This document shows, piece by piece, positions 8,973 through 23,769 of a stretch of DNA of 64,000 nucleotides (the stretch's first letter is position 1; the number at the start of each line of letters is the position of its first letter). The translations under genes were made by a program, and so were the position numbers. The notes beneath the pieces were generated by a model. That model was not told the origin of the DNA. It did no database searches and saw only the letters and a program-made list of their open reading frames with translations. Source of the stretch: Prauserella flavalba (GTDB lineage Bacteria > Actinomycetota > Actinomycetes > Mycobacteriales > Pseudonocardiaceae); NCBI RefSeq assembly GCF_003202235.1, contig NZ_MASU01000013.1:124001-188000 (forward strand), given 5' to 3'.

Positions 8973-9593
8973 ATGAACCAGCCGAGGTCGGGTCGGCCAC
9001 AGGCACACGGTGAGTTCGAGCGGGCCAGGGCCGCGGCGGTCCATGCGGACACCGCGTCGCAGGTCCAGGCGGCGCTCACCGTGGCGGGGCACGCCGTGGA
9101 CGCCGAGGACTGCCGGGAGCTGCTCGCCATGCTGGGCCTGAGCGGCACCGACGGGGCCCGCACGCGCAGAGCGTCCGATACCCAGTCCGTCGCCGACGGC
9201 GTGAGCGCGTTCGCGGACGAGCTCTCCGGTTACCTTTCGGCGGTGGCGGGTGCGCTCGGTGTTCCGGCGGACGGTGTCATCTTCGAGGTCAGCGACACGG
9301 CGACCGCCTACGTCGCGCTCACGCGGCGGAGCGCGCGGTGGCCGGGCCAGGACCTGATGCTGCTCTGGAGCGAGCTGCGCGGGTGGAGCCTCTCCGTCGA
9401 GACCCGGCCTGCCGAGCCCAGTGTCGTGCTGGCCGGGCTCGGTGGGGACCTGGTTCCGGCCCCGCGCGTGGTGGCGGCCTTCGTCGGCGACGTGCTGGCC
9501 GGGCGGCGCGCTGAGCCTGTGCGGCCCGTCGTGCCGATGCCGAGGAACCGGGCCGAGCTGGCCGCCCGCATGCGCGAGTACGTCGCTTCCTAG
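8973..9593 (+). CDS. DUF6292 family protein
   Basis: 206 residues. Residues about 80-175 form a compact domain ending in RWPGQDLMLLWSELRGWSL and VETRP, characteristic of the DUF6292 proteins frequent in Pseudonocardiaceae. The N-terminal 60 residues are helical and variable. Function unknown. AGGGGAG precedes the ATG at a suitable distance. The gene is tail to tail with the PaiB-like gene, their stops overlapping by four bases. Confidence 0.65.
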   Translation: MNQPRSGRPQAHGEFERARAAAVHADTASQVQAALTVAGHAVDAEDCRELLAMLGLSGTDGARTRRASDTQSVADGVSAFADELSGYLSAVAGALGVPADGVIFEVSDTATAYVALTRRSARWPGQDLMLLWSELRGWSLSVETRPAEPSVVLAGLGGDLVPAPRVVAAFVGDVLAGRRAEPVRPVVPMPRNRAELAARMREYVAS

Positions 9594-10219
9594 CCGTGGC
9601 GCCGCATCAGCTTCGCCAGTGCCGGGCCGCTCGCGGCCGTTCGTGTGACGTCTGCGCGAACGCGTTCCCGCACGGCGGCGGGCATGTCCTGGCTCAGCTT
9701 GAACACGCTGCGCGCCGTCCTCACCCGTACCCTGAACGCCACGACGTGTTCGACGAGCGAGGCGAACTTCTCGCGTGACGAAGCCATGTCCCAGGCCGGG
9801 TCCCGCTGCGACTCCAGTGCCAGCACCGTCTGCTCCACCACGTCGAGCGTCCCGGCGGTGTCCTGGACGAGCTCCGCGGTGCCGGTGAGGTGCACGGCCG
9901 CGTAGTTCCACGTCGGTACCGCCGGGGTGTAGCCGTAGGCGCTCGGGGAGACGTAGCCGTCCGGGCCCGAGAACACGAGGAGCACCTCCCGCCCCGCCAG
10001 GTCGCGCCACTGCGGGTTGGCCCTCGCCAGGTGGCCGAGCAGTGTCACGCCCTCCCACGCCGCGGGCGGTTCCTGTCGCTGCGGAAAGATCACCGGCAGG
10101 TGGGTGGCGGCCGGTGCGCCCGCACCGGCCGCGCTCACCACCAGCGCGAAGGGGTTGTGCCGCACCAGCTCGATCTCGTCCGCTGTGGACGGTGCGGAGT
10201 ACCGCGCGAACTCGTGCAT
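9590..10219 (-). CDS. PaiB-like FMN-binding protein
   Basis: 209 residues. Matches the PaiB/FMN-binding split-barrel family (often annotated as FMN-binding negative transcriptional regulator): HNPFALVVSA, THLPVIFP, LLGHLARANPQW, VLLVFSGPDGYVSPSAY and VPTWNYAAVHLTG are all family motifs. In Bacillus the pai locus is linked to polyamine acetylation, which is suggestive here because the upstream gene is an amine oxidase. The ATG at 10219 follows the amine oxidase stop by one base and has GGAG inside the end of that gene, so the two are surely one operon. Whether it acts as a regulator or a flavoenzyme is open. Confidence 0.8.
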   Translation of the reverse strand: MHEFARYSAPSTADEIELVRHNPFALVVSAAGAGAPAATHLPVIFPQRQEPPAAWEGVTLLGHLARANPQWRDLAGREVLLVFSGPDGYVSPSAYGYTPAVPTWNYAAVHLTGTAELVQDTAGTLDVVEQTVLALESQRDPAWDMASSREKFASLVEHVVAFRVRVRTARSVFKLSQDMPAAVRERVRADVTRTAASGPALAKLMRRHG

Positions 10220-10220
10220 C

Positions 10221-12149
10221 TCACGCTCCGTCGCCGTGGCAGTGACTCCCGCAATGGGAGCCACCCGGTGCGGGCACGTCGAGCGTGGGGTTGCGGTCGA
10301 AGAACCCCGCGGGCTTGAGTGTGAAGCCGCAGCGGTCCACCGGCATCACCGGCCAGTCCTCCAGCCGCGGGAAGTGGGTGAGGCCGAAGGTGTGCCACAC
10401 CACCAGGTCGGCGCCGTCGAGGTCGCGGTCGGCCTTCGTGTACTCGGGCAGGCCGAGGCCGGCCGGGCTCTGGTTCACCAGGTCGCCTGCGGGGAAGCGC
10501 TCGTCCTCGTCGTAGCGGGTGACCCACAGGTGCTTGGTCGCGAACGTCGCGCGCCCGTGGATCGCCGACTCCTCGTCGGCCAGCAGCGTCGGCAGGCCCT
10601 GAGGGGTGAGCACGTAGCCGGTCTCCTCGCCGAGGCGGTTGCGGCGCCTCGGGTTCACGATGTGCCACACGCGCCCGCGTTCCGGCGCCGCCACCCGCTG
10701 CGCCTCGCGTTCGCTGGTGAGCCTGCGCGCGGAGCGCGTGAACGCGTTGCCGAACGGGTTGCCCTCGCCCATCGGCACCCGCGCGACCTCCACCTCCTCG
10801 ACGGCGTTGACGTCGCCGTCGACGGACATGTCGAGCCGCACGTTGAACAGGTGCTGGTGGTACGGCGCCGCGAGGCCGGGCGCGACCTGCGAGGCGTACG
10901 GCGCGATCCGCTCGTCGTAGTGGGCGGTGAACACGATGCCGGTGGCCTTGCACTCCAGCTCGATCGTGCCGTCGACGTAGAGGTACCAGTAGAAGCCGTA
11001 GTCGTAGTTGCCGACGGTGACGAAGAACGACACCACGAGCCTGCGCTGCCGGCGGGTCTGCCTGCTGCCGTTGGCCGGGTCGGTGTGCTTCCACAGCACG
11101 CCGGCGTCCTCCTCGTGGATGCAGATCGCGTTGGTGATCGTCGTGGGCTCGCCGCTGCCGTCGGCCACGACGGCGTCGACGTAGGTGATGTCGCCGAGGC
11201 AGTCGCAGCCGAGCTCCAGCGAGTTGGCGAGCCTGCCGAGCTGGTACTCGCCGGTGTCGAAGTAGTTCTGCCAGAAGCGGATCGGGCCGGGATCGGCGTA
11301 GGGCACCACCATCTCGGCCACCGAGGCGCGGTAGACGATGGGCCGCAGCTCGCCGCCGTCGGTGAAGCCGAGCTGGTGCAGCACGAGGCCCTCTCGCATG
11401 TCGTAGCCGAGCCGGACCTGCCAGTTCTCCCAGCGCAGCACGCCGTCCTCCAGCGTGAAGCTCGGGCCTTCCGGCTGGGTGATCTCGATGGGCCGCTGGG
11501 TGGTCCTCGGCGGTCCGGACACGGCGGGGTCGTCGTAGTCGCCGGACTCCTGCGGGATCGGCACCGCCCCGGTGTCGACGATCTCCATCACCTCGCGCGC
11601 GATGAGGTCGACGTAGGCGACGAGCCCGTCCACGGGGTGTGCCCAGACCATTGTGGATGGATCGGGCCGCCAGTGGGCGAGCACCCGCACGAGCCGTCGC
11701 CCGCCGTCCGCAATGGACTCGAAGCGGCCGGCCGAGAGCGCGGCGAGGTACACGTGCGCGGGATCCTCGATGCCGCGCTTGCGCAGCGCGGCGCGCCAGC
11801 CCTCGTCGGCGGCCATGATCTCGCGGACCACGTCGTGTTCCTCGGCGAGCACCGGAAGCTGGCCGTGTTCACCGCTGACGGGTGTGCGGATGCGCACGGT
11901 GCGGTCGGTCAGGCACACCCGTACGTCCTCGGCCGCACCGTCGGCGACATCCAGCAGTAACACCCTGGCAACACGCTCGGCTCCGGTGCCGTCCTTTTCG
12001 TACCGGGCGACGGCGGACTTCGCGGGCTCGGCGAGGCCGACATAGGAGAACCGCGTCGTCTCCCGCAGCACGTCGCCTGCTTCGAGGATCTTGCGCACGT
12101 CCGTGATCTCGTCCGCGGTCAGCGGCGCGAGCGGGTGTGGTTCCGTCAC
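10221..12149 (-). CDS. Copper-containing primary amine oxidase (phenylethylamine/tyramine type)
   Basis: 642 residues. Topaquinone precursor Tyr382 in VGNYDYGFYW, catalytic base Asp298 in YFDTGEYQLG, copper ligands His431 and His433 in HQHLF and His592 in GLTHFPR. These positions coincide exactly with the numbering known for Arthrobacter globiformis phenylethylamine oxidase, which supports both the family and the GTG start at 12149 (AGGAGA precedes it). It oxidises primary amines to aldehydes with release of ammonia and hydrogen peroxide. No signal peptide, so it is cytoplasmic. It heads an operon with the PaiB-like gene and is divergent from a peptide-type importer operon; a 20-bp palindrome lies between its start codon and its promoter. 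Confidence 0.95.
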   Translation of the reverse strand: MTEPHPLAPLTADEITDVRKILEAGDVLRETTRFSYVGLAEPAKSAVARYEKDGTGAERVARVLLLDVADGAAEDVRVCLTDRTVRIRTPVSGEHGQLPVLAEEHDVVREIMAADEGWRAALRKRGIEDPAHVYLAALSAGRFESIADGGRRLVRVLAHWRPDPSTMVWAHPVDGLVAYVDLIAREVMEIVDTGAVPIPQESGDYDDPAVSGPPRTTQRPIEITQPEGPSFTLEDGVLRWENWQVRLGYDMREGLVLHQLGFTDGGELRPIVYRASVAEMVVPYADPGPIRFWQNYFDTGEYQLGRLANSLELGCDCLGDITYVDAVVADGSGEPTTITNAICIHEEDAGVLWKHTDPANGSRQTRRQRRLVVSFFVTVGNYDYGFYWYLYVDGTIELECKATGIVFTAHYDERIAPYASQVAPGLAAPYHQHLFNVRLDMSVDGDVNAVEEVEVARVPMGEGNPFGNAFTRSARRLTSEREAQRVAAPERGRVWHIVNPRRRNRLGEETGYVLTPQGLPTLLADEESAIHGRATFATKHLWVTRYDEDERFPAGDLVNQSPAGLGLPEYTKADRDLDGADLVVWHTFGLTHFPRLEDWPVMPVDRCGFTLKPAGFFDRNPTLDVPAPGGSHCGSHCHGDGA

Positions 12150-12174
12150 GTGACTCTCCTGGGATCTCAATCGA

Positions 12175-12194
12175 ATGCCGGAACGTTCCGGCAT
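12175..12194. promoter_or_regulatory. Operator 1 (LacI-type palindrome), amine oxidase side
   Basis: Perfect 20-bp palindrome ATGCCGGAACGTTCCGGCAT with a central CG, the step into which LacI-family hinge helices insert. It lies just downstream of the predicted start point of the amine oxidase promoter and 26 bases before the GTG, a classic roadblock position. A second copy is at 12288-12307. The LacI-type gene at 19559-20557 is the obvious candidate repressor. Confidence 0.8.
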
Positions 12195-12203
12195 CGGATC
12201 GGA

Positions 12204-12232
12204 AGGCTAGCCGCCACAGCCTCGCCGGTCAA
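12204..12232 (-). promoter_or_regulatory. Promoter of the amine oxidase operon
   Basis: On the minus strand, TTGACC (12227-12232) and TAGCCT (12204-12209) are separated by exactly 17 bases. Transcription would start near 12197, immediately before operator 1. Confidence 0.6.
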
Positions 12233-12249
12233 TGATCGGTAAACAGGGG

Positions 12250-12279
12250 TTGACGGGGAAGGGGCTGCCACCGTTTAAT
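12250..12279 (+). promoter_or_regulatory. Promoter of the importer/hydrolase operon
   Basis: TTGACG (12250-12255) and TTTAAT (12274-12279) with an 18-base spacer. Transcription would start near 12286, immediately before operator 2. The geometry mirrors the divergent promoter. Confidence 0.65.
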
Positions 12280-12287
12280 CTCTGCCC

Positions 12288-12307
12288 ATGTCGGAACGTT
12301 CCGGCAT
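12288..12307. promoter_or_regulatory. Operator 2 (LacI-type palindrome), importer side
   Basis: ATGTCGGAACGTTCCGGCAT, identical to operator 1 except for one base in the left arm. It lies 59 bases before the start of the binding-protein gene. The two operator centres are 113 bp apart, so a tetrameric repressor could also loop them. Confidence 0.8.
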
Positions 12308-12365
12308 CACCAGGGCGGCACTGTACCGCGATCACGCCACGTCACCGCCGGAAAGCAGAGGTCCA

Positions 12366-13973
12366 ATGCGGATCCCCAGAATCTTGTGCGCCGTCGCGGC
12401 GACCGCCGTGCTCTCGAGCTGTTCCGCGGCGCCCGTCAGCGACAACGCCCCGACGTCCGAGGTGCCCGGTTACCTCGCGGTCGCCGACGAGGCCGTCACC
12501 TCGGGCGGCACGCTCGACCTGCAGATGACCGTCGACAACGGCGCCGCGACCGGGCTGGACCCGCAGCTCGCCGACGTCGCGACGTCGTGGCAGCTGATGT
12601 CGCTCGTCTACGAGACGCTCGTGACGGTCGGCCCCGACTTCTCCATCGAGCCCGGGCTCGCGGAGAGCTGGGACAACCCGAGCCCCACCGAGTACGTCTT
12701 CCACCTGCGGAAGGGCGTCACGTTCTCGAACGGCAGGGCGATGACCGCCGACGACGTCGTGGGCAGCTTCGAGCGCCTGCTCGCGGGCCAGGGCGTGTGG
12801 AAGACCCAGATCGGCCCCGTCGAGAAGGTGTCCAAAGTCGACGACCGCACCGTCTCGGTGACACTGTCCAGCCCGTACCAGCCGTTCCTCGCCTCGCTCG
12901 CGAACGTCCCCGCCGCCGTGCTGCCGATCAAGGAGATCGAGGACGGCTCCGTGGACATCACCAGGGAGATGCTCGGCACCGGGCCGTTCGTGGTGAAGTC
13001 CCACCGGCAGGACGTCTCGTGGCAGTTCACGCGCCGCGACGGCTACTGGGCGCAGGGCAAGCCGTCGGCCGACACCGTCAACATCGCCATCGCGGGGCAG
13101 GAGCAGGCCAGGATGGCCGCGCTCCAGAACGGCAGCGCCGACCTGGTGATGCTCGGCAACGTCGACGCGCCGGAACTGCTGAACGGCGTCCGAGGCACGG
13201 CCGTGGGCACCCAGGCCACCACCGACTTCTACTACCTGATGCTCAACAGCAACGCGCCGGGCGGGAAGTTCGACGACCCGCGCGTGCGGCAGGCGATCAA
13301 CATCGCGATGGACCGCAGGGCGATCGCCGACTCCGCGCTCGGCGGCCTCGGCAAGCCCACGGGCGTCACCCCGGCCGGGCTGCCCGGCTCGTGCGACCCC
13401 GCGCAGGTGCCCTCCGCGAAGGCCGGCCTCGACCGCGCGCGGCAGTTGCTCAGGGAGGCCGGGGCCGAGAACCTGACCTTCGAGCTCGCGGCCTACTCCA
13501 CCGCACCCGCGCCGGCGGTCGCGCAGGTGATCCAGCAGAACCTGCAGCGCATCGGCATCACGGTGAACATCGAGCAGCTCGACGAGGGCAGCTGGTCGGG
13601 CAAGGTCTACGGCGAGGTGCCCGCGACGTTCGACGCCGCGCTCTCGTGGTTCGCCGGGTACGCCGACGCCGCGATGGTCGGCAAGTGGTGGAACCCCGAG
13701 CAGGCCGGGTTCAACGTCGGCTTCATGGAGCCGAACGCGGAGCTGAACACCGCGATCGACAAGGCCATCGCCACACCGGCCGGGCCGGAACGCGACACCG
13801 CGCTGCAGCAGCTGTGCGACGCCGTCGACACGGACGCGCAGATGATCCCGCTGGTGACCAGGCCCGCGCTCATCGGCTACCGGTCCGACGCGCTGAGCCC
13901 CACGCTGTACGCCACCGAGGGCTACGGCAACGTCTTGCGTGGCATCGCCGACTTCCGGCTGCTCACCAAGTAG
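12366..13973 (+). CDS. Peptide/nickel-type ABC importer, substrate-binding lipoprotein
   Basis: 535 residues, SBP family 5 (DppA/OppA-like). The N-terminus MRIPRILCAVAATAVLSSCS is a lipoprotein signal with lipobox LSSC, so the protein is anchored outside the membrane. FHLRKGVTFSNGRAMTADDV and the later MLNSNAPGGKFDDPRVRQA are family motifs. The ATG at 12366 is chosen because it opens the signal peptide; the longer frame from 12288 would begin inside operator 2. It binds peptides or amide compounds for import. First gene of a seven-gene run (12366-19593) with overlapping or short-spaced genes. Confidence 0.9.
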   Translation: MRIPRILCAVAATAVLSSCSAAPVSDNAPTSEVPGYLAVADEAVTSGGTLDLQMTVDNGAATGLDPQLADVATSWQLMSLVYETLVTVGPDFSIEPGLAESWDNPSPTEYVFHLRKGVTFSNGRAMTADDVVGSFERLLAGQGVWKTQIGPVEKVSKVDDRTVSVTLSSPYQPFLASLANVPAAVLPIKEIEDGSVDITREMLGTGPFVVKSHRQDVSWQFTRRDGYWAQGKPSADTVNIAIAGQEQARMAALQNGSADLVMLGNVDAPELLNGVRGTAVGTQATTDFYYLMLNSNAPGGKFDDPRVRQAINIAMDRRAIADSALGGLGKPTGVTPAGLPGSCDPAQVPSAKAGLDRARQLLREAGAENLTFELAAYSTAPAPAVAQVIQQNLQRIGITVNIEQLDEGSWSGKVYGEVPATFDAALSWFAGYADAAMVGKWWNPEQAGFNVGFMEPNAELNTAIDKAIATPAGPERDTALQQLCDAVDTDAQMIPLVTRPALIGYRSDALSPTLYATEGYGNVLRGIADFRLLTK

Positions 13974-13991
13974 CGGGGGAGGGCAAGGGCT

Positions 13992-14966
13992 GTGCGACTG
14001 TTCACGTGGTGGCTGCGCCGGGCGCTGAGTGCGGTCGTCACTCTGTTCCTCGTCTCGATCCTGATCTTCGCCGCCTCCCGGCTCATGCCGGGCGGGTTCG
14101 CCGAGGTGGTGCTCGGCCCGTTCGCCACGCCGGAGCAGAAGGCCGAGGTGGCGGCGAAGTACGGGCTCGACGAGAGCATCGTCGTCCAGTACTGGCTGTG
14201 GCTCACCACGGCGCTGACCGGTGACTTCGGGATCTCGATGATCAGCGGGGAGCCCGTCACGACCGAGTTCGGGCTGCGGCTGCCGGTGACCGCGCAGCTG
14301 ACCCTCTTCGGTGTCGTCGCGGCGATCCTGATCGGCGTTCCGCTCGGCGTCTTGACCGCGGTGCGCGCGGGCGGGCGCCGCGGCGGGGCCGCGCTGGGCA
14401 GGCTGGCGAGCGGGCTCGGGGTGAGCGTGCCCGAGTTCGTGCTCGGCAGCATCGTGGTGTTCCTGTTCTCGCGTTACGCGCTGGGGCTCACCGTCGGCGG
14501 CTACGTGCCGTTCGGCGAGGACCCCGGCGGAAACCTCCGGTCGATGCTGCTGCCCGCCGCGGTGCTGTCGGTGTTCGTGGTCGCCGTGACCGCGCGGACC
14601 ACGCGGGACGCGGTGCTGAACGTGCTGGTGGAGCCCTACATCACGGCGGCGATCGCGCGCGGCGAGAGTCCCGGGTCCATCGTCGTGCGGCACGTGCTGC
14701 GCAACGCGTCGATCCCCGTCGTCACGGTGCTCACCACGGTCACCGCCTACCTGCTCGGCGGTGCGGTGATCATCGAGTACCTGTTCAACCTGCCCGGCGT
14801 CGGCACCTACATCGTGCAGGCGGTCGGCAGGCGCGACTACGCGGTGGTGCAGGCGGGCGTGCTGCTGGCGGCCGTGGTGTTCATCGTGATGAACATGCTG
14901 ACCGACGCCGCGGCAGGCGTGCTCGACCCTCGGTTCGGCTCGGCGGCGAAGGGGCGGAAGCGATGA
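13992..14966 (+). CDS. ABC importer permease, DppB type
   Basis: 324 residues starting at GTG 13992 (MRLFTWWLRRALSAVVTLFL). Six membrane helices, with the coupling motif RTTRDAVLNVL...YITAAIARGESP (EAA-type loop) that contacts the ATPase, and the LPGVGTYIVQAV tail motif. Forms the pore with the next gene product. Its end overlaps the next start by four bases (ATGA). Confidence 0.9.
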   Translation: MRLFTWWLRRALSAVVTLFLVSILIFAASRLMPGGFAEVVLGPFATPEQKAEVAAKYGLDESIVVQYWLWLTTALTGDFGISMISGEPVTTEFGLRLPVTAQLTLFGVVAAILIGVPLGVLTAVRAGGRRGGAALGRLASGLGVSVPEFVLGSIVVFLFSRYALGLTVGGYVPFGEDPGGNLRSMLLPAAVLSVFVVAVTARTTRDAVLNVLVEPYITAAIARGESPGSIVVRHVLRNASIPVVTVLTTVTAYLLGGAVIIEYLFNLPGVGTYIVQAVGRRDYAVVQAGVLLAAVVFIVMNMLTDAAAGVLDPRFGSAAKGRKR

Positions 14967-15793
14967 CCGGGTGGCGCAAGGCCGACTGGCTGACCCGCTC
15001 GGGCCTGGTGTGCCTGGCCGTGCTGGTGCTCGTCACGGTCGTGGGCACGGTGTTCGGCATCGGCGGGGACCCCGACGCGATGGTGGGGCCGCGCCTCGCC
15101 CCGCCGGGCGGTGAGTTCCTGCTCGGGACGGACGAGCTCGGCCGCTCGATGCTGCCGAGGCTGTTCGAGGGCATCGGCACCACGCTGCTGCTGTCGACCG
15201 TCGCCGTACTCGTGACGGCCGTGCTGGCGACGCTGCTCGGCGTGGCGGCCGGGTACTACGGCGGATGGCTCGGCGAGGTGGTGCTGCGCCTGGTGGAGGT
15301 GCTGTACTCGTTCCCGACGATCGTGCTGGCGATCCTCGTCGCCGCCGTGGTCGGGCCGGGGCAGACCGCCACGATGTGCAGCATCGTCCTCATCACCATC
15401 CCGCTGATGACACGGGTCGTGCGCGCGGCGGCGGTGACGGTGTCGGAGCGCGACTACGTGACCTCCGCCGTGATCAGCGGCGCGGGCTGGCCGCGCATCC
15501 TCGTGCGGCACCTGCTGCCCAACCTCTCCGGCACCATCGCCGTGCAGGGCACCTACGCGCTCTCGGTGGGCATCCTCGTCGAGGGCGGGCTCAGCTTCCT
15601 CGGCTTCGGCGTGCAGCCCCCGCAGTCGTCGCTGGGCGCGCTGATCCAGCAGGGCAGCACGTACCTGCTCACGGCGCCGTGGCTGGTCATCGTTCCCGGG
15701 ATCGTGCTCATCGTGGCGGTCCTGGCCATCAACGTGTTCGGCGACGGTCTGCGCGACGGTCTCGAACCGAGGGAGGCTCGGTCGCTGGTATGA
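14963..15793 (+). CDS. ABC importer permease, DppC type
   Basis: 276 residues. N-terminal DppC features (PDAMVGPRLAPPGGEFLLGTD, the conserved HPFGTDELGRD-like region), then helices and the coupling loop SERDYVTSAVISGAGWPRI, and the GGLSFLGFGVQPP motif. Partner of the preceding permease. Overlaps the following ATPase gene by four bases, so expression is translationally coupled. Confidence 0.9.
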   Translation: MTGWRKADWLTRSGLVCLAVLVLVTVVGTVFGIGGDPDAMVGPRLAPPGGEFLLGTDELGRSMLPRLFEGIGTTLLLSTVAVLVTAVLATLLGVAAGYYGGWLGEVVLRLVEVLYSFPTIVLAILVAAVVGPGQTATMCSIVLITIPLMTRVVRAAAVTVSERDYVTSAVISGAGWPRILVRHLLPNLSGTIAVQGTYALSVGILVEGGLSFLGFGVQPPQSSLGALIQQGSTYLLTAPWLVIVPGIVLIVAVLAINVFGDGLRDGLEPREARSLV

Positions 15794-16752
15794 CACCCCT
15801 TCTGCAGATCGACGACCTCGTCGTCGACTACGCCTCCGGCGGGCGCACGGTGCGCGCGCTCGACGGCGCCGCCCTCACCGTCGAGGCGGGTGAGACCGTC
15901 GGCGTCGTCGGCGAGTCCGGCTCGGGCAAGTCCACGCTCGGCTCGGCGATCGGCGGCCTGCTGCCCGGTGCGGCGAAAGTCGTGAGCGGTGCCGTGCGCG
16001 TGGACGGCGACGATGTGAACTCCCTGCGCCCCACACAGTTGCGGGCGCTGCGGCGGGAACGGCTCGGGTACGTCTTCCAGGAGCCCATCGGCTCGCTCGA
16101 CCCCACCATGCGTGTCGGCAAGCAGGTGGAGCTCGCGCTGCGGGGGCGGGGCACCAAGGCCGACGTGCTGCCCCACCTCGAACGTGTGCGGCTCAGGGAC
16201 CCCGAGCGCGTGGCGAGGTCCTACCCGCACCAGCTCTCCGGCGGCATGGCGCAGCGCGTCGCCATCGCGCTGGCGATGGCGGGCAAGCCGGAGATCCTGA
16301 TCGCCGACGAGCCCACGGCCGCGCTGGACAGCCAGATCCGCGAGGAGGTGCTGGGGGTCATCTTCTCGCTCGCGGCCGAGTCCGGGACCACGATCCTGTG
16401 GCTCAGCCACGACCTGCCCGCAGTGGCGAAGCGCTGCTCCAGGGTCGTGGTGATGTACGGCGGCCGGGTGGTGGAGTCGGGGTCGGCGGGCGAGGTGCTC
16501 GCCGCACCCCGGCACCCCTATACCGCCGCGCTGGTGCGGGCGGTGCCCGGCGAGCTCGCCGAGGGCGAGCGGCTCGTGCCGATCCCCGGCCAGCCGCCCG
16601 TGCTCGACGGCCCCTCGGAGGGCTGCGCGTTCGCGCCGCGCTGCCCGGACGCCGACGACGCCTGCGCCGCGAGCAGGCCACCGCTGGTGTCGGTGGAGCA
16701 GCGCGACGTACTGTGCCATCTGGCGGAGGAAACGGTGGGTGCGGGCCGATGA
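15790..16752 (+). CDS. ABC importer ATPase, DppD/OppD type
   Basis: 320 residues from ATG 15790. Walker A GESGSGKST, signature LSGGMAQRV, Walker B ILIADEPTAALD, and switch His in LWLSHDL. The C-terminal extension has GCAFAPRCPDADDAC and a further Cys, the peptide-transporter domain found in OppD/DppD. Powers uptake together with the next gene product. Overlaps neighbours by four bases on both sides. Confidence 0.9.
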   Translation: MTPLLQIDDLVVDYASGGRTVRALDGAALTVEAGETVGVVGESGSGKSTLGSAIGGLLPGAAKVVSGAVRVDGDDVNSLRPTQLRALRRERLGYVFQEPIGSLDPTMRVGKQVELALRGRGTKADVLPHLERVRLRDPERVARSYPHQLSGGMAQRVAIALAMAGKPEILIADEPTAALDSQIREEVLGVIFSLAAESGTTILWLSHDLPAVAKRCSRVVVMYGGRVVESGSAGEVLAAPRHPYTAALVRAVPGELAEGERLVPIPGQPPVLDGPSEGCAFAPRCPDADDACAASRPPLVSVEQRDVLCHLAEETVGAGR

Positions 16753-17498
16753 TCCTGGAACTCGACGACGTGGGCGTCACGTTCACCGGCGGCCCGCCGT
16801 GGGCGCGCACGAAGGTGTACGCGATGAAGGGCGTGTCGCTGACCCTCGCCGAGGGCGAGATCCTCGGCCTCGTGGGCGAATCGGGCTCCGGCAAGACCAC
16901 CACGAGCACGGTGGCGCTCGGGCTGCGCAGACCCACCTCGGGTTCGGCGCTGTTCGAGGGCAAGCCGTTTCCCAAACGGCGCAAGGCACTCGCGGGCCGG
17001 ATGCAGGCGGTGCTGCAACATCCACAGTGGTCACTCAACCCGCGCATGCGCGTCGGGCACTGCGTGGCCGAGCCGCTGGTGGTGCTCGGCGGCACCACGA
17101 AGGACGAGGTCACCGAGCGCGTGCTGGCGACCCTGGGCCAGGTGGGCCTCGACGCGTCGTTCGCGCAGCGCTACCCGCACCAGCTCTCCGGAGGACAGCG
17201 CCAGCGCGTGTCGATCGCGCGGGCACTGGTGACCCGGCCGCCGTTCGTCGTCTTCGACGAGGCGGTGAGCGCGCTGGACGTGTCGGTGCAGGCCCAGATC
17301 CTCAACCTCGTCAAGGACCTGCGCGCGGAGTTCTCCTTCGCCGCGTTGTTCATCAGCCACGACATCGGCGCCGTCCGCTATGTCGCCGACCGGGTCGCGG
17401 TGATGCGCCACGGCGAGGTGGTGGAGACCGCGCCGTCGGCGGTCTTCTTCGGCACCCCGGAACACGAATACTCGAGACAGCTAGTGGAGGCTCTGTGA
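16749..17498 (+). CDS. ABC importer ATPase, DppF type (short)
   Basis: 249 residues. Walker A GESGSGKTT, signature LSGGQRQRV, Walker B FVVFDEAVSALD, His-loop LFISHDI. Unlike usual DppF/OppF proteins of about 320 residues it stops right after the core fold and lacks the Cys-containing C-terminal peptide-transporter domain. Second nucleotide-binding subunit of the importer. Walker B has DEAVS rather than DEPVS, a common OppF variant. Its TGA overlaps the GTG of the P1 hydrolase gene. Confidence 0.9.
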   Translation: MILELDDVGVTFTGGPPWARTKVYAMKGVSLTLAEGEILGLVGESGSGKTTTSTVALGLRRPTSGSALFEGKPFPKRRKALAGRMQAVLQHPQWSLNPRMRVGHCVAEPLVVLGGTTKDEVTERVLATLGQVGLDASFAQRYPHQLSGGQRQRVSIARALVTRPPFVVFDEAVSALDVSVQAQILNLVKDLRAEFSFAALFISHDIGAVRYVADRVAVMRHGEVVETAPSAVFFGTPEHEYSRQLVEAL

Positions 17499-18499
17499 CC
17501 ACGACCAACGGTGTCGCGAACCGGCTGGCGAAGCCGTCGGCGTACGCGGCGGGCGCGGTGACCAACGACGACGTGCCGCTGACGCCGCGGCCGAGCCCGG
17601 GCAGCTCGGTGGTGAGCTTCGATCTGCCCGGCGTGTTCGTCGGCACCGCCGAGTACGCCGAGGGGCCCACGGGCTGCACGGTGATCCACGTGCCCCAGGG
17701 CGCGCGCACCGCGGTCGACGCGCGCGGCGGCGCCGTGGGCATGTCCGGCGGGTACGACTTCCACCACGCGATCGTGCTCGCGGGCGGCTCGGTGTACGGG
17801 CTGGAGGCCGCGGCGGGCGTGAGCACGGAGCTGTTGCACCGCGCGGAGAACCGCACGCACTGGGCGGCACTCCAGCACGTCTCCGGTGCCGTGATCTATG
17901 ACTTCTCCACGCGCGACACGGCGATCGCGCCCGACACCGCACTGGGCAGGGCGGCACTGAACAACGCCGTCGAGGGCGAGTTCCCGGTCGGCCGCTGCGG
18001 CGCGGGGCGCTCCGCCTCCGTCGGCAAGATCGATTTCTCCCGTGCCGAGTTCGCGGGCCAGGGCGCGGCGTTCGGGCGGTACGGCGAGGCGAAGGTGCTC
18101 GTCGCGACCGTGGTCAACGCGGTCGGCGTGGTCGTCGACCGCGACGGCACCGTGGTGCGCGGCAACTACCACGCCGAGACCGGCGAACGCCACGTGCCCG
18201 CGTTCGACTACGCCGCCGCGGCGGAGGGCACCGGCGAGGCCCGCACCGCGTCGGGCAACACCACACTGACCGTGGTGGTGACCAACGCCAAGCTCACCGA
18301 CGTCGCGCTCAAGCAGTTCGCCACCCAGGTGCACAGCTCGATGCACCGGGCCATCCACCCGTTCCACACCGAGCTCGACGGCGACACGCTCTTCGCGCTG
18401 ACCACCGACGAGGTGGAGCTGAAGGGCGTCAACGCCACCGGATTCGGCGCGCTGGCCTCCGAGGTCGCGTGGGACGCCGTCCTGTCGAGCGTCCGATGA
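17495..18499 (+). CDS. P1/S58-family self-processing aminopeptidase or amide hydrolase (DmpA/NylC-like)
   Basis: 334 residues. DmpA/NylC fold proteins cleave themselves at a conserved site to expose a Ser or Thr nucleophile. Here GNTTLTVVVTN carries the NylC-type arrangement, predicting cleavage between Asn255 and Thr256. GGSVYGLEAAAGV and ALNNAVEGEFPVGRCGAG are family motifs. Known members hydrolyse N-terminal beta-amino acids, D-amino acids or aminohexanoate (nylon) oligomers. Its place inside the importer operon, translationally coupled by GTGA, argues that it acts on the imported compound. No signal peptide. The substrate is inferred only as an amide or oligomer. Confidence 0.85.
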   Translation: MTTTNGVANRLAKPSAYAAGAVTNDDVPLTPRPSPGSSVVSFDLPGVFVGTAEYAEGPTGCTVIHVPQGARTAVDARGGAVGMSGGYDFHHAIVLAGGSVYGLEAAAGVSTELLHRAENRTHWAALQHVSGAVIYDFSTRDTAIAPDTALGRAALNNAVEGEFPVGRCGAGRSASVGKIDFSRAEFAGQGAAFGRYGEAKVLVATVVNAVGVVVDRDGTVVRGNYHAETGERHVPAFDYAAAAEGTGEARTASGNTTLTVVVTNAKLTDVALKQFATQVHSSMHRAIHPFHTELDGDTLFALTTDEVELKGVNATGFGALASEVAWDAVLSSVR

Positions 18500-19593
18500 G
18501 CACGCCGCTGGTTCCCCACCACGTCAGCAGCGAGACCGGCGCCCGCGCACGCGGCCGGGCACTCGGCGAGGCGTGCCGAGACGGGATCCACGAGACCTTC
18601 GCCGGGTACGCGAGCCTGTTCGCCGCGCACGGCCTGCACCCGCACCACGTCCGTGACCACGGCCGCGCGGCGCTCGCCGAGATCGGCGGCTGGGCGCCGT
18701 ACCTGGCCGAGGAGATCGCGGGCATCGCCGAGGGCAGCGGTCTTTCGGCGTGGAAGATCGGCGCGCTCAACGCCCGCACCGAGATCCTCGCCGCCGCGGC
18801 CGTCACCGGTGAGGGCGAGTGCTCCACGTCGGTGGTGCTGCCCGGCGACGGCACCCCGCCGCGCACGGTGCAGACGTGGGACTGGCACGACGTGCTGCGC
18901 GACGCGATGCTCGCGTGGACGCTCGAACCCTCGCCGGGGCGCCGGGTCGCGACGTTCACCGAGTACGGCGTGGTCGGCAAGATCGGCGTCAACGACGCGG
19001 GGCTCGGGGTGCACTTCAACGTGCTGCGGCACCGGTCCGACAGCGCCGACATCGGCGTGCCGGTGCACGTGGTGGCCCGGCGGGTACTCGACGAGGCGAC
19101 GACCGTGGAGGACGCCGTGCGCCTCGCGCGCTCGGCCCGGCTCTCGGCATCGACGGTGCTCACCGTCGTCACGCACGATGACGCGCGCTGCCTCGAACTG
19201 TCACCGGCAGGCGTCGCGGAAGTCCACCCCGAGGACGGCTTCCTCACGCACGCCAACCACTTCCTCGACCCGGAACTGGCGAAGGGCGAGCGCACGACGG
19301 CGGACGTGTCGAGCACGTTCGAACGCGGCACGTGGCTGCGCGAGCGCGCCGCCGCACTGGGGGCGGGCGACGTCACCGAACGCGCGCACGCCCTGTGCTC
19401 TCACCGCGAGGACGGCGCGCCGGTGTGCGCGCACGCCGAACAGACGCTGCCCCCGCACCAGCGCTGGGAGAGCCTGGCGACCATCAGCATCGACGTCGCC
19501 GACCGGCGGCTGCATGTCCACCGTGGTGGTCCGTGCCGGGTGAGTGAGGGGGCGTGGCTCACCTGCTCCGCCGGGTTGACCGTCGTTCGTTGA
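18496..19593 (+). CDS. C45 peptidase / acyl-coenzyme A:6-APA acyltransferase-like Ntn hydrolase
   Basis: 365 residues. NARTEIL followed by GECSTSVV is the motif of the C45 family (isopenicillin N acyltransferase and relatives), where the Cys becomes the N-terminal nucleophile after self-cleavage; here Cys109. TWDWHD and GKIGVNDAGLGVHFN continue the Ntn-hydrolase fold. Members hydrolyse or transfer acyl groups on amides. The family also includes acid amide and N-acyl amino acid hydrolases. Cytoplasmic by lack of a signal. Starts by ATGA overlap with the P1 gene and ends the operon, overlapping the convergent LacI gene by 35 bases. Confidence 0.85.
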   Translation: MSTPLVPHHVSSETGARARGRALGEACRDGIHETFAGYASLFAAHGLHPHHVRDHGRAALAEIGGWAPYLAEEIAGIAEGSGLSAWKIGALNARTEILAAAAVTGEGECSTSVVLPGDGTPPRTVQTWDWHDVLRDAMLAWTLEPSPGRRVATFTEYGVVGKIGVNDAGLGVHFNVLRHRSDSADIGVPVHVVARRVLDEATTVEDAVRLARSARLSASTVLTVVTHDDARCLELSPAGVAEVHPEDGFLTHANHFLDPELAKGERTTADVSSTFERGTWLRERAAALGAGDVTERAHALCSHREDGAPVCAHAEQTLPPHQRWESLATISIDVADRRLHVHRGGPCRVSEGAWLTCSAGLTVVR

Positions 19594-20557
19594 GGCCGAT
19601 GGGCTGGGCGCGTACCGTGCCGCGCGGCGCCTCGCCGGAGAGGATGTCGAACAGCAGCCGCGCGCACGCCGCCCCCGCCTCGCGCGGGCGCAGGTCGATC
19701 GCCGTGATCGGTGGGTCGGTGTGGTTGAGCGCCGCACTGTCCACACAGGACGCCAGCAGCAGGTCGTCACCGATGCTCCTGCCCGCCGCGCGGAGCACGG
19801 GCAACACCGCCGACGCCGCGCCGTCGGGCGCGCACACCAGCGCGTCCACGGCCTCCTCGGCGTTGAGCAGCGCGCGCACGTTCTCCTGCATCACGGCGGT
19901 GGGCGAGCCGAACGCCATCTCGCGCAGCCGCGCGCGCAGGCGGTGCCGCTCGCACCACGCCAGGTAGGCCCGTTGCAGGGTGCGACCCCAGTCGGTGACC
20001 GTGCTCGACGCGAGCAACGCGATGTCGCGCGCACCCTGCGCGTGGAGGTGGTCGAGCAGCTCGTCGAGCATCGCGGCGTGGTCGGAGAGCACCACCCCGG
20101 CGGGCTCTGCGTCGCCGGTGAACCGCTCACACGTGACCACGGGCACCGACGAGTCGAGCAGCCCGCGCACCACGGTGTCGGTCTCCAGGGGGTCGCCGAG
20201 CACGACGCCGTCGACGCGGTGGAACCGGCGGGAGGGCACGTGCTGCGCGGTGAGCAGCGTGACGTCGTAGTCCATCCGCGCGGCCTGGTCGACCACGCCG
20301 AAGACGAACGACATGTAGTACTCGGAGCGGGTCAGCACCTCCGGCAGGTGCAGACCGATCGTGCCCGTGCTCGCCATGCGCAGCGAGCGGGCGACGGGGT
20401 TCGGCGAGTAGCCGAGCCGGTTGGCGACGGCGACCACGTGCTCGCGGGTCTTCTCCGACACCCGGCCGGAGTTGCGCAGCGCGTCCGATGCCGTCGTCTT
20501 CGACACGCCTGCGGCCTTCGCCACCGCGATGAGGTTCACCGGCTCTTGCTCGCGCAC
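19559..20557 (-). CDS. LacI-family transcriptional repressor
   Basis: 332 residues from GTG 20557. N-terminal HTH VNLIAVAKAAGVSKTTASDA, hinge NPVARSLRMAS, then a periplasmic-binding-protein-like effector domain with TERFTGDAEPAG-type and TAIDLRPREAG segments. It is the only LacI protein in the window and closes the amide/amine island, so it is the likely reader of the two GGAACGTTCC operators at 12175 and 12288. The effector is presumably the imported compound or a breakdown product. A much longer open frame runs upstream to 21922 through the histidine kinase gene and is not real. Confidence 0.9.
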   Translation of the reverse strand: MREQEPVNLIAVAKAAGVSKTTASDALRNSGRVSEKTREHVVAVANRLGYSPNPVARSLRMASTGTIGLHLPEVLTRSEYYMSFVFGVVDQAARMDYDVTLLTAQHVPSRRFHRVDGVVLGDPLETDTVVRGLLDSSVPVVTCERFTGDAEPAGVVLSDHAAMLDELLDHLHAQGARDIALLASSTVTDWGRTLQRAYLAWCERHRLRARLREMAFGSPTAVMQENVRALLNAEEAVDALVCAPDGAASAVLPVLRAAGRSIGDDLLLASCVDSAALNHTDPPITAIDLRPREAGAACARLLFDILSGEAPRGTVRAQPIGLNERRSTRRSR

Positions 20558-20677
20558 ACTGGGAACGATAGCCGCTGAACCGCCTTCCGGGCTGGTCGGG
20601 GCGCGGATTCCGGTGGCCGCGTCCACAGTGGAAGCTCCACTCACGCCACCCCGCTTGGGTGCGTTACCTTGGCGGGC

Positions 20678-22027
20678 ATGGGCAGGGTGGACGAGGGCGA
20701 GGCGGGGGCGCGGGAACCGGGCTGGAACCGGTGGCGACGGCCCCGGCCGGAGCCCGCCATACAGCGTTCCGATGTCCTCGTCACGCTCGCCGTGCTGGCC
20801 GGGTCGTGCCTCATGACCGTGCTCGTCAACAGCATGGGCATGCTGGTGTTCGGCGCCCCGCCGTCGCTGGGCGAGCAGCTGGTCTGGGGCGCGGCGCTGT
20901 CGCTGCCGCTCGTCGCCCGGCGCCGGTACCCGTCGGCCGTGCTGATCGTGGTGGGCACGCTGTTCATCGCCGCGCAGGTGCGCCAGACCGGCGACAGCCT
21001 CATGGCCTCGGTCGCGCTGTTCCTCGCGATCTACAGCACGGGCGCGTGGGAACCCAACCGCACGGCGGCACGCTGGTCGCGCATCGGCGTGATCGTCGCG
21101 ATGTTCGGGTGGCTCGGCATCGGGCTCGTGGAGTCGATCGCGCAGCCCGACTACGACTTCTCCGCCGCCGCCGGCCCCCTTGACCCGATGCTCGCCTCGG
21201 TGCTCTACAACATCGGCTTCAACCTGATGTTCTTCCTCTCCGCCTACTTCTTCGGCAACCTCGCCTGGCTGTCCGCGCGCAGGCGGGACGAGCTGGAGGA
21301 ACGGGCCGAGCAGCTGCGGCTGTCGCAGCAGCAGAACACCCGTAACGCGATCGTCGCCGAGCGCGTGCGGATCGCCAGGGACCTGCATGACGTGGTCGCC
21401 CACCACGTTTCCGTGATGGGCATCCAGGCCGGAGCCGCGCGGCGCGTGCTCGACAAGGACCCCGCGCTGGCCCGCGAGGCGCTGCGGACCGTGGAGGAGA
21501 CCGCCCGCACCGCCATCGGTGAGCTGCGCGGGCTGCTGGGCGTGCTGCGCTCCGAGCCGGAGAACGGCCAGGAGAGCGCCGAGCCCGACGCACACGCCGC
21601 GTCGCCCGGTCTCGACCAGCTGGCCGAGCTGGTGTCGACCGCGGAGTCGGCCGGGCTCCAGGTCACCCACGGCGTCTACGGCGAGGCGAGGCCGGTGCCC
21701 GACGGGGTCGCGCTGTCGGCGTACCGGGTGGTGCAGGAGGCGCTCACCAACGTCGTCAAGCACGCGAGCGCCCGCAAGGCCGACGTCCGCGTGCGGTACC
21801 TGGAGAGCACGCTGGAGGTGGAGGTGTCCGACGACGGCGTCGGCCGCGCGGGGCAGGGCGCGGTGTCCGGTGGGTTCGGGCTGCTGGGTATGCGGGAGCG
21901 GGTGGCCGTGCACGGCGGGCACCTGGAGGCGGGTCGCCGCGAAGGCGGAGGCTACCGGGTGCGGGCCACCCTGCCGACGGGGCCGGTGCAGTCTACTGAG
22001 GACAGTGAGGAGCGATCGGCATCGTGA
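20678..22027 (+). CDS. Two-component sensor histidine kinase, NarL/DegS class
   Basis: 449 residues. Basic N-terminus, four to six membrane helices over residues 30-200 with short loops, then HisKA_3 dimerisation with the phospho-acceptor His in ARDLHDVVAHHVSVMG, and a HATPase_c domain (VVQEALTNVVKHA, DDGVG, GFGLLGMRERV). Senses a membrane or envelope signal. ATG 20678 is chosen over the TTG at 20669. Its stop overlaps the start of the response regulator gene by four bases. Divergent from lacI, 120 bases apart. Confidence 0.9.
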   Translation: MGRVDEGEAGAREPGWNRWRRPRPEPAIQRSDVLVTLAVLAGSCLMTVLVNSMGMLVFGAPPSLGEQLVWGAALSLPLVARRRYPSAVLIVVGTLFIAAQVRQTGDSLMASVALFLAIYSTGAWEPNRTAARWSRIGVIVAMFGWLGIGLVESIAQPDYDFSAAAGPLDPMLASVLYNIGFNLMFFLSAYFFGNLAWLSARRRDELEERAEQLRLSQQQNTRNAIVAERVRIARDLHDVVAHHVSVMGIQAGAARRVLDKDPALAREALRTVEETARTAIGELRGLLGVLRSEPENGQESAEPDAHAASPGLDQLAELVSTAESAGLQVTHGVYGEARPVPDGVALSAYRVVQEALTNVVKHASARKADVRVRYLESTLEVEVSDDGVGRAGQGAVSGGFGLLGMRERVAVHGGHLEAGRREGGGYRVRATLPTGPVQSTEDSEERSAS

Positions 22028-22719
22028 CCGAGGGCAACAGGGACGGCGCCGACCGTCCGCTGCGGGTGGTGCTCGCCGACGACCAGGACCTCGTGCGGGC
22101 CGGCTTCCGGGTCATCCTCGGGGCGGAGGACGGCATCGAGGTGGTCGGCGAGGCGGGTGACGGGCTCAAGGCCGTGACGCTGGCCGAGGAGCTTCGCCCC
22201 GACGTGGTGCTCATGGACGTGCAGATGCCCGGTGTCGACGGCCTGGAGGCCACACGCCGCATCCTCGGCTCGGGGGCCGGGGAGTCGCCGGTGAAGGTCG
22301 TGATCCTCACGACGTTCGACCGCGAGGACTACCTCTTCGAGGCGCTGCGGGCGGGTGCGAGCGGGTTCCTGCTGAAGAATGCGTCGCCGGAGGACCTCGT
22401 GGAGTCGGTGCGCATCGTCGCCAGGGGCGACGCGCTCCTCTCGCCCGAGGTCACGCGCCGCGTGATCGCCCGGTTCTCCGCCCCGGCGGCACCCGCGCCC
22501 GCGCACCGCCCCGCCGAGCTGACCGATCGGGAGTACGAGGTGCTGGTGCTGCTCGCCCGAGGCGCCAGCAACGCCGAGATCGCCGCCGAGCTGTACCTGG
22601 GCGAGGCGACCGTGAAGACGCACGTGTCACGTGTGCTCGCCAAGCTCGAGCTGCGCGACCGCACCCACGCCGTCGTCTACGCCTACGAGAACGGGATCGT
22701 GGCCCCCGGCGGTGCATAG
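22024..22719 (+). CDS. NarL/FixJ-type response regulator
   Basis: 231 residues. Receiver domain with phosphorylation Asp in VVLMDVQMPG, the acidic pair DDQD near the N-terminus and Lys in FLLKNA; C-terminal LuxR-type HTH LTDREYEVLVLLARGASNAE and GEATVKTHVSRVL. GTG 22024 overlaps the kinase stop. Likely controls the downstream ABC exporter, a common arrangement in actinomycetes. Confidence 0.9.
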   Translation: MTEGNRDGADRPLRVVLADDQDLVRAGFRVILGAEDGIEVVGEAGDGLKAVTLAEELRPDVVLMDVQMPGVDGLEATRRILGSGAGESPVKVVILTTFDREDYLFEALRAGASGFLLKNASPEDLVESVRIVARGDALLSPEVTRRVIARFSAPAAPAPAHRPAELTDREYEVLVLLARGASNAEIAAELYLGEATVKTHVSRVLAKLELRDRTHAVVYAYENGIVAPGGA

Positions 22720-22737
22720 GCCACCCGCTGGGCACGT

Positions 22738-22765
22738 CCGCAGTGAAGGCCACCTTGCCTGCGCC
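22738..22765. repeat. Degenerate half of the 25-bp palindrome family
   Basis: CGCAGTGAAGGCCACCTTGCCTGCG differs from the family consensus only in the right arm (CCTTGCCTGCG instead of CCTTCACTGCG). Lies in the 153-base gap between the response regulator and the ABC ATPase. Nothing else is recognised in the gap. Confidence 0.6.
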
Positions 22766-22872
22766 CACCCGTCTCCCGCCACCACCCCAACGGAGGTCAC
22801 CCGCCGGGCGGATGACGGGGTCGGCCTCGCGCCGGACGCGAAAGGCCTACACCTCTCCGTAGGCTCCTCGGC

Positions 22873-23769
22873 ATGTTGACGGTGACGACGATCAGCAGGA
22901 GCTTCGGCGACCACCGCGTGCTCGACGACGTGTCGTTCGACGTGCGCCCTGGGCGGATGACCGGGTTCCTCGGCGCCAACGGCTCCGGCAAGACCACCAC
23001 GATGCGGATCATCCTCGGCGTGCTCGCCGCGCAGGGCGGCACCGTGACGTGGCACGGCAAGCCGGTGACCCAGCCGCTGCGGCAGCGCTTCGGCTACATG
23101 CCGGAGGAGCGCGGGCTGTACCCGAAGATGAAGGTCGGGGAGCAGATCTCCTGGTTCGGCAGGCTGCACGGGCTCAGCCAGGCCAAGGCCAACCGCAATA
23201 CGGAGCGCCTGCTGGAACAGCTCGACCTCGCGCAGCGCGCCAACGACAACCTCGAGGAGCTCTCGCTGGGCAACCAGCAGCGCGCCCAGGTCGCCGCCGC
23301 GCTCGTGCACGACCCGGCGTTGCTGATCCTCGACGAGCCGTTCTCCGGGCTCGACCCGATCGCCGTCGACACCGTGCTGCGGGTGCTGCGCGAGCGCGCC
23401 GCCGACGGCGTGCCGGTGCTGTTCTCCAGCCACCAGCTCGCGCTCGTCGAGCGGCTGTGCGACGACCTCGTGATCATCTCCGGCGGCCGGATCGCCGCGA
23501 GCGGCGGCCGGGAGGAACTGCGCGAGCGGTACGGGACCAAGCGCTGGGAGCTGGTGGTCGACTCCGACGCGGGCTGGCTGCGCGACGTCCCCGGCATCCG
23601 CCTCATCAGCCTGGACGGCCCGAAGGCCGTCTTCGAACTGGCCGAGCACACCGCCGACGGCGAACGGGTCGACCAGCGTGTCCTGCGCGCCGCACTGGAA
23701 CGCGGCGAGGTCCGTGGCTTCACCCCCGTCGTCCCGTCGCTGGACGAGATCTTCAAGGAGGCGATCTGA
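22873..23769 (+). CDS. ABC exporter ATPase, NatA/YhaQ-like
   Basis: 298 residues. Walker A GANGSGKTTTMR, PEERGLYPKM (the YhaQ/NatA-type Q-loop region), signature LSLGNQQRAQV, Walker B LLILDEPFSGLD, and a C-terminal DUF4162-like extension (residues 215-298). Couples ATP hydrolysis to the permease encoded next. TGA and ATG share one base with the following gene. Likely target of the adjacent two-component system. Confidence 0.9.
   Translation: MLTVTTISRSFGDHRVLDDVSFDVRPGRMTGFLGANGSGKTTTMRIILGVLAAQGGTVTWHGKPVTQPLRQRFGYMPEERGLYPKMKVGEQISWFGRLHGLSQAKANRNTERLLEQLDLAQRANDNLEELSLGNQQRAQVAAALVHDPALLILDEPFSGLDPIAVDTVLRVLRERAADGVPVLFSSHQLALVERLCDDLVIISGGRIAASGGREELRERYGTKRWELVVDSDAGWLRDVPGIRLISLDGPKAVFELAEHTADGERVDQRVLRAALERGEVRGFTPVVPSLDEIFKEAI

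Follow-up and report, generated by a model that had tools for sequence, protein, structure and literature searches.

We analysed a window of 64,000 nucleotides from Prauserella flavalba (contig NZ_MASU01000013.1, positions 124,001 to 188,000 of the forward strand; positions below are those of the window). Between positions 9590 and 20557 it encodes an Opp-type importer, a P1/S58 hydrolase (P1), a C45 acyl hydrolase (C45), a copper amine oxidase, a relative of the protein NohD and a LacI-family regulator (Table 1). It is very nearly certain that these parts belong to one pathway. The substrate is probably an amide of an N-hydroxylated diamine and, with moderate confidence, we read the locus as a catabolic cluster under LacI control that acts on hydroxamate polyamides based on cadaverine; desferrioxamine-type siderophores, used as a source of carbon and nitrogen, are the likeliest of these. 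Amides of N-hydroxycadaverine are suggested because two enzymes that would cut acyl-nitrogen bonds occur with a primary-amine oxidase, a relative of an N-hydroxylamine dehydratase and, in part of the related loci, a tail of genes for a C5 dicarboxylate. Linear desferrioxamine B and cyclic desferrioxamine E (nocardamine) are the most likely candidate substrates.

Kinship of the cluster enzymes

The sequence-only reading had assigned P1 to the P1/S58 family, which held, but it had missed the close kinship of the protein with NylC. The best solved relatives of P1 are 6-aminohexanoate oligomer hydrolases: NylC came first in the Protein Data Bank (PDB) (5xys, E 1.3e-118, residues 8-332), followed by Nyl12 (E 1e-53). 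P1 and NylC are identical at 202 of 323 residues aligned with MAFFT (60.3% by BLASTP). Seven of eight NylC positions are kept in P1 (Y146, K189, N219, N266, T267, D306 and D308), and the stability position Glu263 is replaced by Ala252. Tyr135, Lys178, Asn208, Asp295 and Asp297 of P1 are the equivalents of NylC Tyr146, Lys189, Asn219, Asp306 and Asp308, the last three of which we take to be active-site positions. An excerpt of PMC13343204 describes Tyr146 and Lys189 as active-site residues, and one of PMC6021441 gives Asn266/Thr267 as the autocleavage site of NylC; the cleavage site predicted earlier for P1, Asn255/Thr256, aligned with the latter. NylC degrades linear and cyclic aminohexanoate oligomers in endo mode (PMC5408104). 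We regard it as near certain, from these alignments, that P1 is a NylC-type enzyme. A PHROGs search with P1 returned nothing.

A maximum-likelihood tree of 29 proteins placed NylC as sister to the P1 protein of genome G832 (support 85/86; G and L numbers denote genomes and loci), whose locus also encodes the oxidase, NohD, C45, the CoA-transferase CaiB, a transaminase and glutaryl-CoA dehydrogenase (GcdH). NylC and the G832 protein have long branches and several forks are unresolved, so that the exact place of NylC is unsure. It falls among the cluster P1 proteins, apart from other Prauserella P1 proteins (32-33% identical). The P1 proteins of other families are 59-74% identical to that of the window, and because identity between families is this low, NylC-type P1 enzymes must be far older than nylon.

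The protein at the other end of the cluster had been called PaiB-like. Its family (PF04299) was correct, but its kinship with an N-hydroxylamine dehydratase had gone unnoticed, and NohD is closer to it than PaiB. The best PDB matches were NohD (9oqs, E 4.5e-59) and a piperazate synthase (9ebk, E 3.9e-45), with PaiB itself at 3e-24. Identity to NohD was 57% by BLASTP and 62% by MAFFT. The heme-binding His and the Asn, Thr and Lys whose roles in piperazate synthases are described in an excerpt of PMC13274692 are conserved in the window protein (His78, Asn83, Thr118 and Lys189), and are present in all 18 of the cluster proteins aligned, out of 24 linked ones. In contrast, Tyr150 and Lys178 of the piperazate synthases are absent, as they are in NohD, and the window protein has Lys166 and Met194 instead; we therefore rejected a piperazate synthase identity. 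We predict an N-hydroxylamine dehydratase of the NohD kind, taking the reaction from the molecule name in the PDB. Piperazate synthases can deaminate a simple hydroxylamine, with an imine as the expected product, according to an excerpt of PMC12150314. A search of the open literature for "hydroxylamine dehydratase" gave no paper, and the name NohD gave no description among the 25 of 3,479 matches listed. Because identity of the PDB NohD sequence to the cluster proteins reaches 85% in G829 and 78% in Nonomuraea, the solved NohD probably derives from such a cluster.

The oxidase matched 1rjo best in the PDB (E 3.8e-233). It carries Asp298, Tyr382, His431, His433 and His592 in the numbering of the Arthrobacter phenylethylamine oxidase (AGAO), presumably the catalytic Asp, the Tyr of the NYDY motif that forms topaquinone (TPQ) and the three copper-binding His. 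No obvious signal peptide was seen by eye. The C45 protein resembles acyl-CoA:6-APA acyltransferase (2x1d, E 3e-20), and its proposed nucleophile, Cys109, was borne out by sequence inspection. Its profile match is well over the cut-off (Table 1).

Conservation, layout and control

P1 relatives were collected at E <= 1e-60. In the family 15 of 390 genomes have one, as do 6 of 397 in the order (3 of them new) and 8 of 394 in the class (6 new); with the P1 protein of G829 as query, 11 of 200 genomes of that organism's family matched (9 new). The Nonomuraea gerenzanensis locus came from a plasmid collection in which P1 matched 12 records. With the window counted, the resulting set comprises 35 loci from 34 genomes; it leaves out Variovorax, Sinorhizobium, the remaining 9 records of the plasmid collection and weaker paralogues. 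The presence of parts was scored by tblastn with identity cut-offs on flanks of differing length, and since the loci are related by descent the counts are not independent. P1 occurs in 35 loci, LacI in 31, the importer in 30, C45 in 28, the oxidase in 27 and the PaiB/NohD protein in 24. The linkage of oxidase and importer, which the sequence-only reading had proposed to look for in other genomes, thus extends over many genera, with hosts among the Pseudonocardiaceae, Nonomuraea and other actinomycetes.

The arrangement varies. The genes are divergent in most Pseudonocardiaceae and in G1137, form a single run with the oxidase first in G307, G829, Nonomuraea and others, and are split in G1082. 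Four loci (two in G1141, one each in G1176 and G1081) have no oxidase, NohD or LacI; G403 and G581 have only P1 and LacI of the cluster parts, G373 and G176 have lost the importer, and the G1205 locus is interrupted by a contig end. In G373 a 48-residue remnant of the binding protein is all that is left of the importer (L032:10491-10634), and both operators, P1, C45, oxidase, NohD and LacI are retained; the place of the aldehyde dehydrogenase of relatives, between C45 and LacI, is taken by an SDR gene. The G176 locus (L035:7301-12262) is decayed, with PaiB, oxidase and C45 in frame-shifted pieces, a short P1, no importer and the operator kept. In G145 an IS110-family transposase lies between the aldehyde dehydrogenase and LacI (L029:5525-6700). 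G888 has a tandem pair of NylC-like P1 genes with variant operators, CGGATCGTTCCG and CGGAACGATCCG, and no oxidase (L082:9012-11110).

That these genes are unrelated neighbours without a common pathway is extremely improbable. Individual parts are indeed missing at some loci, but the same set recurs in many genera in differing orders and with one operator, and the parts missing from the first G1082 locus lie together elsewhere in that genome.

In the window, every gene named in the sequence-only reading lies where and in the order it had reported, as judged from open reading frame coordinates and profile matches. The overlaps it had described between importer and hydrolase genes measure 4 bases at every junction from PermB through PermC, AtpD, AtpF and P1 to C45. 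The oxidase and NohD-like genes are transcribed divergently from the importer, and the two units share a control region of about 216 bases (12150-12365). The mechanically called reading frames have over-long N-termini that run through both operators; likelier starts are GTG 12149 for the oxidase and ATG 12366 for the binding lipoprotein. The NohD-like protein probably starts at Met 10219 (MHEFARY). Solved relatives of the binding protein include AgaA, NikA and DppA. Beyond LacI, at 20669-23769, lie genes for a histidine kinase, a response regulator and an ABC ATPase, with matches of 73-97% in the corresponding position of L003 and L004 and none in the examined stretch of the other Prauserella genome, L025; the genomes covered include four of this genus.

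Table 1. Genes and control sites of the cluster, in window positions
Feature	Position	Strand	Evidence
NohD-like (PaiB/FMN_bind_2) protein, proposed heme N-hydroxylamine dehydratase	9590..10264	-	PF04299 139 bits
Copper (topaquinone) amine oxidase, AGAO type	10221..12149	-	PF01179 512 bits; NF008559 876 bits
LacI-type operator ATGCCGGAACGTTCCGGCAT, oxidase side, perfect palindrome	12175..12194	.	
Possible promoter TTGACG-N18-TTTAAT ahead of importer operon	12250..12279	+	by eye only
LacI-type operator ATGTCGGAACGTTCCGGCAT, importer side	12288..12307	.	
Substrate-binding lipoprotein, SBP family 5 (SBP_bac_5)	12366..13973	+	PF00496 263 bits; lipobox LSSC by eye
ABC permease, OppB/DppB/NikB type (PermB)	13992..14966	+	profile matches
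ABC permease, OppC/DppC/NikC type (PermC)	14963..15793	+	profile matches
ABC ATPase, OppD/DppD type (AtpD)	15790..16752	+	profile matches
ABC ATPase, OppF/DppF type (AtpF)	16749..17498	+	profile matches
NylC-type P1/S58 Ntn hydrolase, autocleavage Asn255/Thr256	17495..18499	+	PF03576
C45 autoproteolytic acyl hydrolase, nucleophile Cys109	18496..19593	+	NF040521 235 bits, cut-off 85
LacI-family regulator, proposed reader of both operators	19559..20557	-	PF00356, PF13377

The matching operators noted earlier for the divergent units are 20-base palindromes, each directly after a possible -10 element seen by eye; a promoter consensus scan reported none. When the pattern YGCCGGAACGTTCCGGCR was searched in 24 genomes with at most one mismatch, 36 sites were found in 21 of them, 34 inside the cluster and the remaining two outside it, in G145 and G146, while a reversed control of the pattern gave no site. 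The operator pair is therefore not due to chance. The core CGGAACGTTCCG, at the same tolerance, is present at 28 of the 35 loci and at 26 of the 27 that have the oxidase (the exception is G899). This is the pattern of a dedicated LacI regulon, with a conserved operator at each unit that is rare elsewhere at up to one mismatch. Independent regulation of the two units, which would have spoken against the sequence-only reading, was not found: the operator is common to both. These observations suggest one local LacI system serving oxidase and importer, in which this LacI protein would bind these operators.

We also considered a wider LacI regulon and rejected it. The nearest off-cluster site in P. 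flavalba, at G000:C16:102229, differs from the 16-mer by 1 mismatch. It falls within the end of a different gene, and the protein encoded downstream resembles, by eye, a siderophore-binding lipoprotein; the site is probably a chance match, because 17 off-cluster sites exist in this genome at up to two mismatches. Those 17 sites are perhaps operators of other LacI-type regulators.

Proposed route and competing substrates

We propose the following route. An oligoamide would be taken in by the Opp-type importer, and its internal amide bonds would be cut by the NylC-type P1 enzyme to give N-hydroxy-N-succinylcadaverine units, from which C45 would take the acyl group off the hydroxamate nitrogen. 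The copper amine oxidase would act on the end that bears the free primary amine and turn it into an aldehyde. The NohD-like enzyme would dehydrate the N-OH end to an imine, hydrolysis of which would yield a second aldehyde. Aldehyde dehydrogenase, transaminase, CaiB and GcdH could then carry the C5 chain through glutarate and glutaryl-CoA to crotonyl-CoA, and the acyl part (succinate or acetate) would need no special genes. LacI would repress both divergent units until the substrate or a product is present. The reactions, their order, the substrate and the effector are predicted from sequence.

Excerpts of PMC12161575 and PMC8009421 describe desferrioxamines as built of N-hydroxycadaverine and succinate, and desferrioxamine E as the cyclotrimer. 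In this respect desferrioxamine E resembles the cyclic oligomers of aminohexanoate opened by NylC. De-succinylation of N-hydroxy-N-succinylcadaverine has been proposed for the penicillin-amidase-type enzyme DesG (excerpt of PMC12161575).

A C5 (glutarate) tail is linked to the cluster in part of the relatives and not in the window. The sequence-only reading had reported no aldehyde dehydrogenase in the window, and none was found; yet one is linked in 13 of the 35 loci (two types, in 9 and 4 loci). CaiB is linked in 10, GcdH in 10 and a transaminase in 7. C45 and LacI flank the aldehyde dehydrogenase (PF00171, 182 bits) in six Pseudonocardiaceae loci. The transaminase is of the GABA type; both proteins tested exceeded the TIGR00700 cut-off. 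The best NCBIfam match of CaiB was succinate-glutarate CoA-transferase, at 327 bits against a cut-off of 750 and for a protein cut by the locus end. Among solved structures the linked acyl-CoA dehydrogenase comes closest to glutaryl-CoA dehydrogenases (for the G829 protein, 3sf6 at E 4.7e-189), and NCBIfam gave no match over cut-off for it. In G1082, the most telling case, the first locus holds LacI, oxidase, importer and P1 without NohD or C45, and the second holds aldehyde dehydrogenase, NohD and C45, with GcdH, CaiB and the transaminase on the other strand. The P. flavalba genome has a 66% GcdH match away from the cluster; three aldehyde dehydrogenases in that genome, 46-48% identical to the cluster one, were not taken as orthologues.

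Several observations weigh against the desferrioxamine proposal. CaiB, transaminase, GcdH and aldehyde dehydrogenase have no match in the whole window, GcdH and CaiB were not seen in 25 of the 35 loci, given the differing flanks, and in two of eight cluster genomes searched, G307 and G309, no close GcdH turned up at E 1e-100. No operator was noticed before the linked CaiB, GcdH or transaminase genes of the relatives, the second G1082 locus included. With up to two mismatches allowed, the 16-mer operator matches the P. flavalba genome at 19 sites, of which 2 lie in the cluster and 17 outside it, and its reversed control at 3; looser sites are therefore not specific. Three genomes of family f34 (G899, G876 and G891) have oxidase loci without a linked NohD; PaiB proteins elsewhere in these genomes were discarded as support, since they look like generic paralogues with unrelated neighbours. 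G423 and G888 lack the oxidase but keep importer, P1, C45 and LacI, and the seven-member tree group of NylC (support 81/99) holds G888, G423, G403 and G581 with an oxidase only in G832. Among solved structures the oxidase is closest to the phenylethylamine oxidase AGAO. The importer is not of the iron-siderophore type. Finally, an NIS synthetase (PF04183), a rough proxy for desferrioxamine biosynthesis, is present in at least 10 of the 15 cluster genomes of the family, with 2 lacking it, versus 251 of 386 overall, and we dropped this co-occurrence as a line of support for want of clear enrichment.

The core of the sequence-only reading, import of an amide oligomer followed by two Ntn hydrolases and amine oxidation under LacI control, finds support in the linkage across genera and in the shared operator; the relations to NylC and NohD and the tail had escaped it. 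As to its suggested substrates, amides of phenylethylamine and beta-peptides are a poorer fit, and aminohexanoate oligomers are chemically near but not the substrate we favour.

The oxidase, transaminase and glutaryl-CoA tail would suit cadaverine itself, and C45 is a family of acyl-amide hydrolases. The cluster could thus act on diamine amides that are not hydroxylated, such as N-acylcadaverines, N-acylputrescines or plant phenolamides, through a diamine oxidase and a C5/C4 tail, with the NohD-like protein in another role. We consider this unlikely: it leaves no role for a NohD relative that is linked in 24 of the 35 loci and stands beside C45 in the second G1082 locus, and no aromatic-acyl genes were noticed among the annotated neighbours, where no systematic search was made.

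The NylC type of P1, together with the GABA-type transaminase and aldehyde dehydrogenase linked in some relatives, could also point to natural omega-amino acid oligomers or lactams, from which P1 and C45 would release omega-amino acids for deamination by the oxidase or the transaminase. Copper amine oxidases of the AGAO type, however, act on amines rather than on zwitterionic amino acids, the oxidase would be redundant given a transaminase, and the NohD relative would have no explanation, which makes such substrates decidedly unlikely. Amides of aromatic amines (phenylethylamine, tyramine or histamine), with an AGAO-like oxidase as the defining step, would account for AGAO as the closest solved structure. 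They are very unlikely, as the genome has a second amine oxidase beside an amino-acid permease, the tail in relatives includes a glutaryl-CoA dehydrogenase and NohD is again unexplained. That second copper amine oxidase (G000:C13:739825-741021; L036:8787-10700) and the adjoining permease gene look like conventional amine utilisation, distinct from the cluster oxidase. Catabolism of carcinine or other N-beta-alanyl amines, suggested by an analogy of C45 with Tan, was dropped from consideration.

The cluster could instead serve iron acquisition, with an imported ferri-siderophore hydrolysed for its iron and not as food. G403 and G581 have a NylC-like P1 and LacI near a FecCD-type importer (L041:3600-10473, L043:9549-16562), with a GGAACGTTCC-core palindrome and an iron box (2 mismatches) between the FecCD permease and the binding protein. 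However, when 12 promoter regions of the cluster were scanned with what we take to be the DmdR/IdeR consensus, no iron box was found: the best matches had 6-9 mismatches, the range that 100 shuffled versions of the window region also gave. We rejected an iron-regulated siderophore system on this ground. The cluster importer is of the Opp type and the downstream genes are those of carbon and nitrogen catabolism, so that iron acquisition is highly improbable. As a link of the cluster to siderophores, G403 and G581 were set aside as weak: they have no GGAACGTTCC palindrome between LacI and P1, belong to one genus and have a FecB-like binding protein. We thus retain the catabolism of cadaverine-based hydroxamates as the favoured explanation.

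Relation to known systems

The enzyme families of the cluster are each known. NohD shares 57-62% identity and the heme His, Asn, Thr and Lys with the window protein, from which the piperazate synthases (KtzT, PipS) differ in their own Tyr and Lys. Arthrobacter AGAO has the same family and catalytic residues as the oxidase, which in the cluster has an importer and amidases as linked genes. No account of oxidase, NohD and C45 as a set, or of genes for hydroxamate siderophore catabolism, was present among the open-literature matches listed, subscription papers being outside the search. The desABCD system with DesG and DesH, in the excerpt available, involves the same proposed metabolites (N-hydroxycadaverine and N-hydroxy-N-succinylcadaverine) and a penicillin-amidase-type enzyme. 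In contrast to the cluster, which would dismantle the siderophore under LacI control, desABCD builds it. If it does dismantle the siderophore, the cluster would supply genes for desferrioxamine turnover.

A proteobacterial relative of the importer-P1 module is found on the Variovorax plasmid NZ_CP138497 (L069:2707-12523), where an Opp-type importer is followed by a NylC-like P1 (51%), with two P1 peptidases. This locus has an RpiR-type regulator and an M81 peptidase of its own, and oxidase, NohD and C45 were not found there by tblastn.

The linkage of opp genes with nylC is known from nylon degraders. No Arthrobacter plasmid was among the 12 plasmid-collection records matched by P1, and the nylon plasmid pOAD2 of Arthrobacter KI72 was also absent among the best 10 of 193 in another plasmid search. 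Kato's 1995 paper on pOAD2 is said to mention a penDE-like gene, which would be of the C45 kind. According to an excerpt of PMC7019077, Arthrobacter and Agromyces carry opp genes in the region that holds nylB and nylC, and a figure legend there lists nylB, hypo, nylC, oppF, oppD, oppC, oppB and oppA; if the legend follows the map, this order is that of the cluster operon reversed. No amine oxidase, NohD or LacI is named in that excerpt. On the further proposition we are evenly divided: that in nature the NylC family serves to open desferrioxamine-type siderophores, that the nylon plasmid enzyme was recruited from such an operon, and that the cluster represents a complete catabolic route for hydroxamate siderophores, with oxidase and NohD acting at opposite ends of N-hydroxycadaverine. 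A conserved chromosomal home for NylC-type enzymes offers a testable natural substrate and new nylonase candidates. The cluster described here may be the natural home of NylC.

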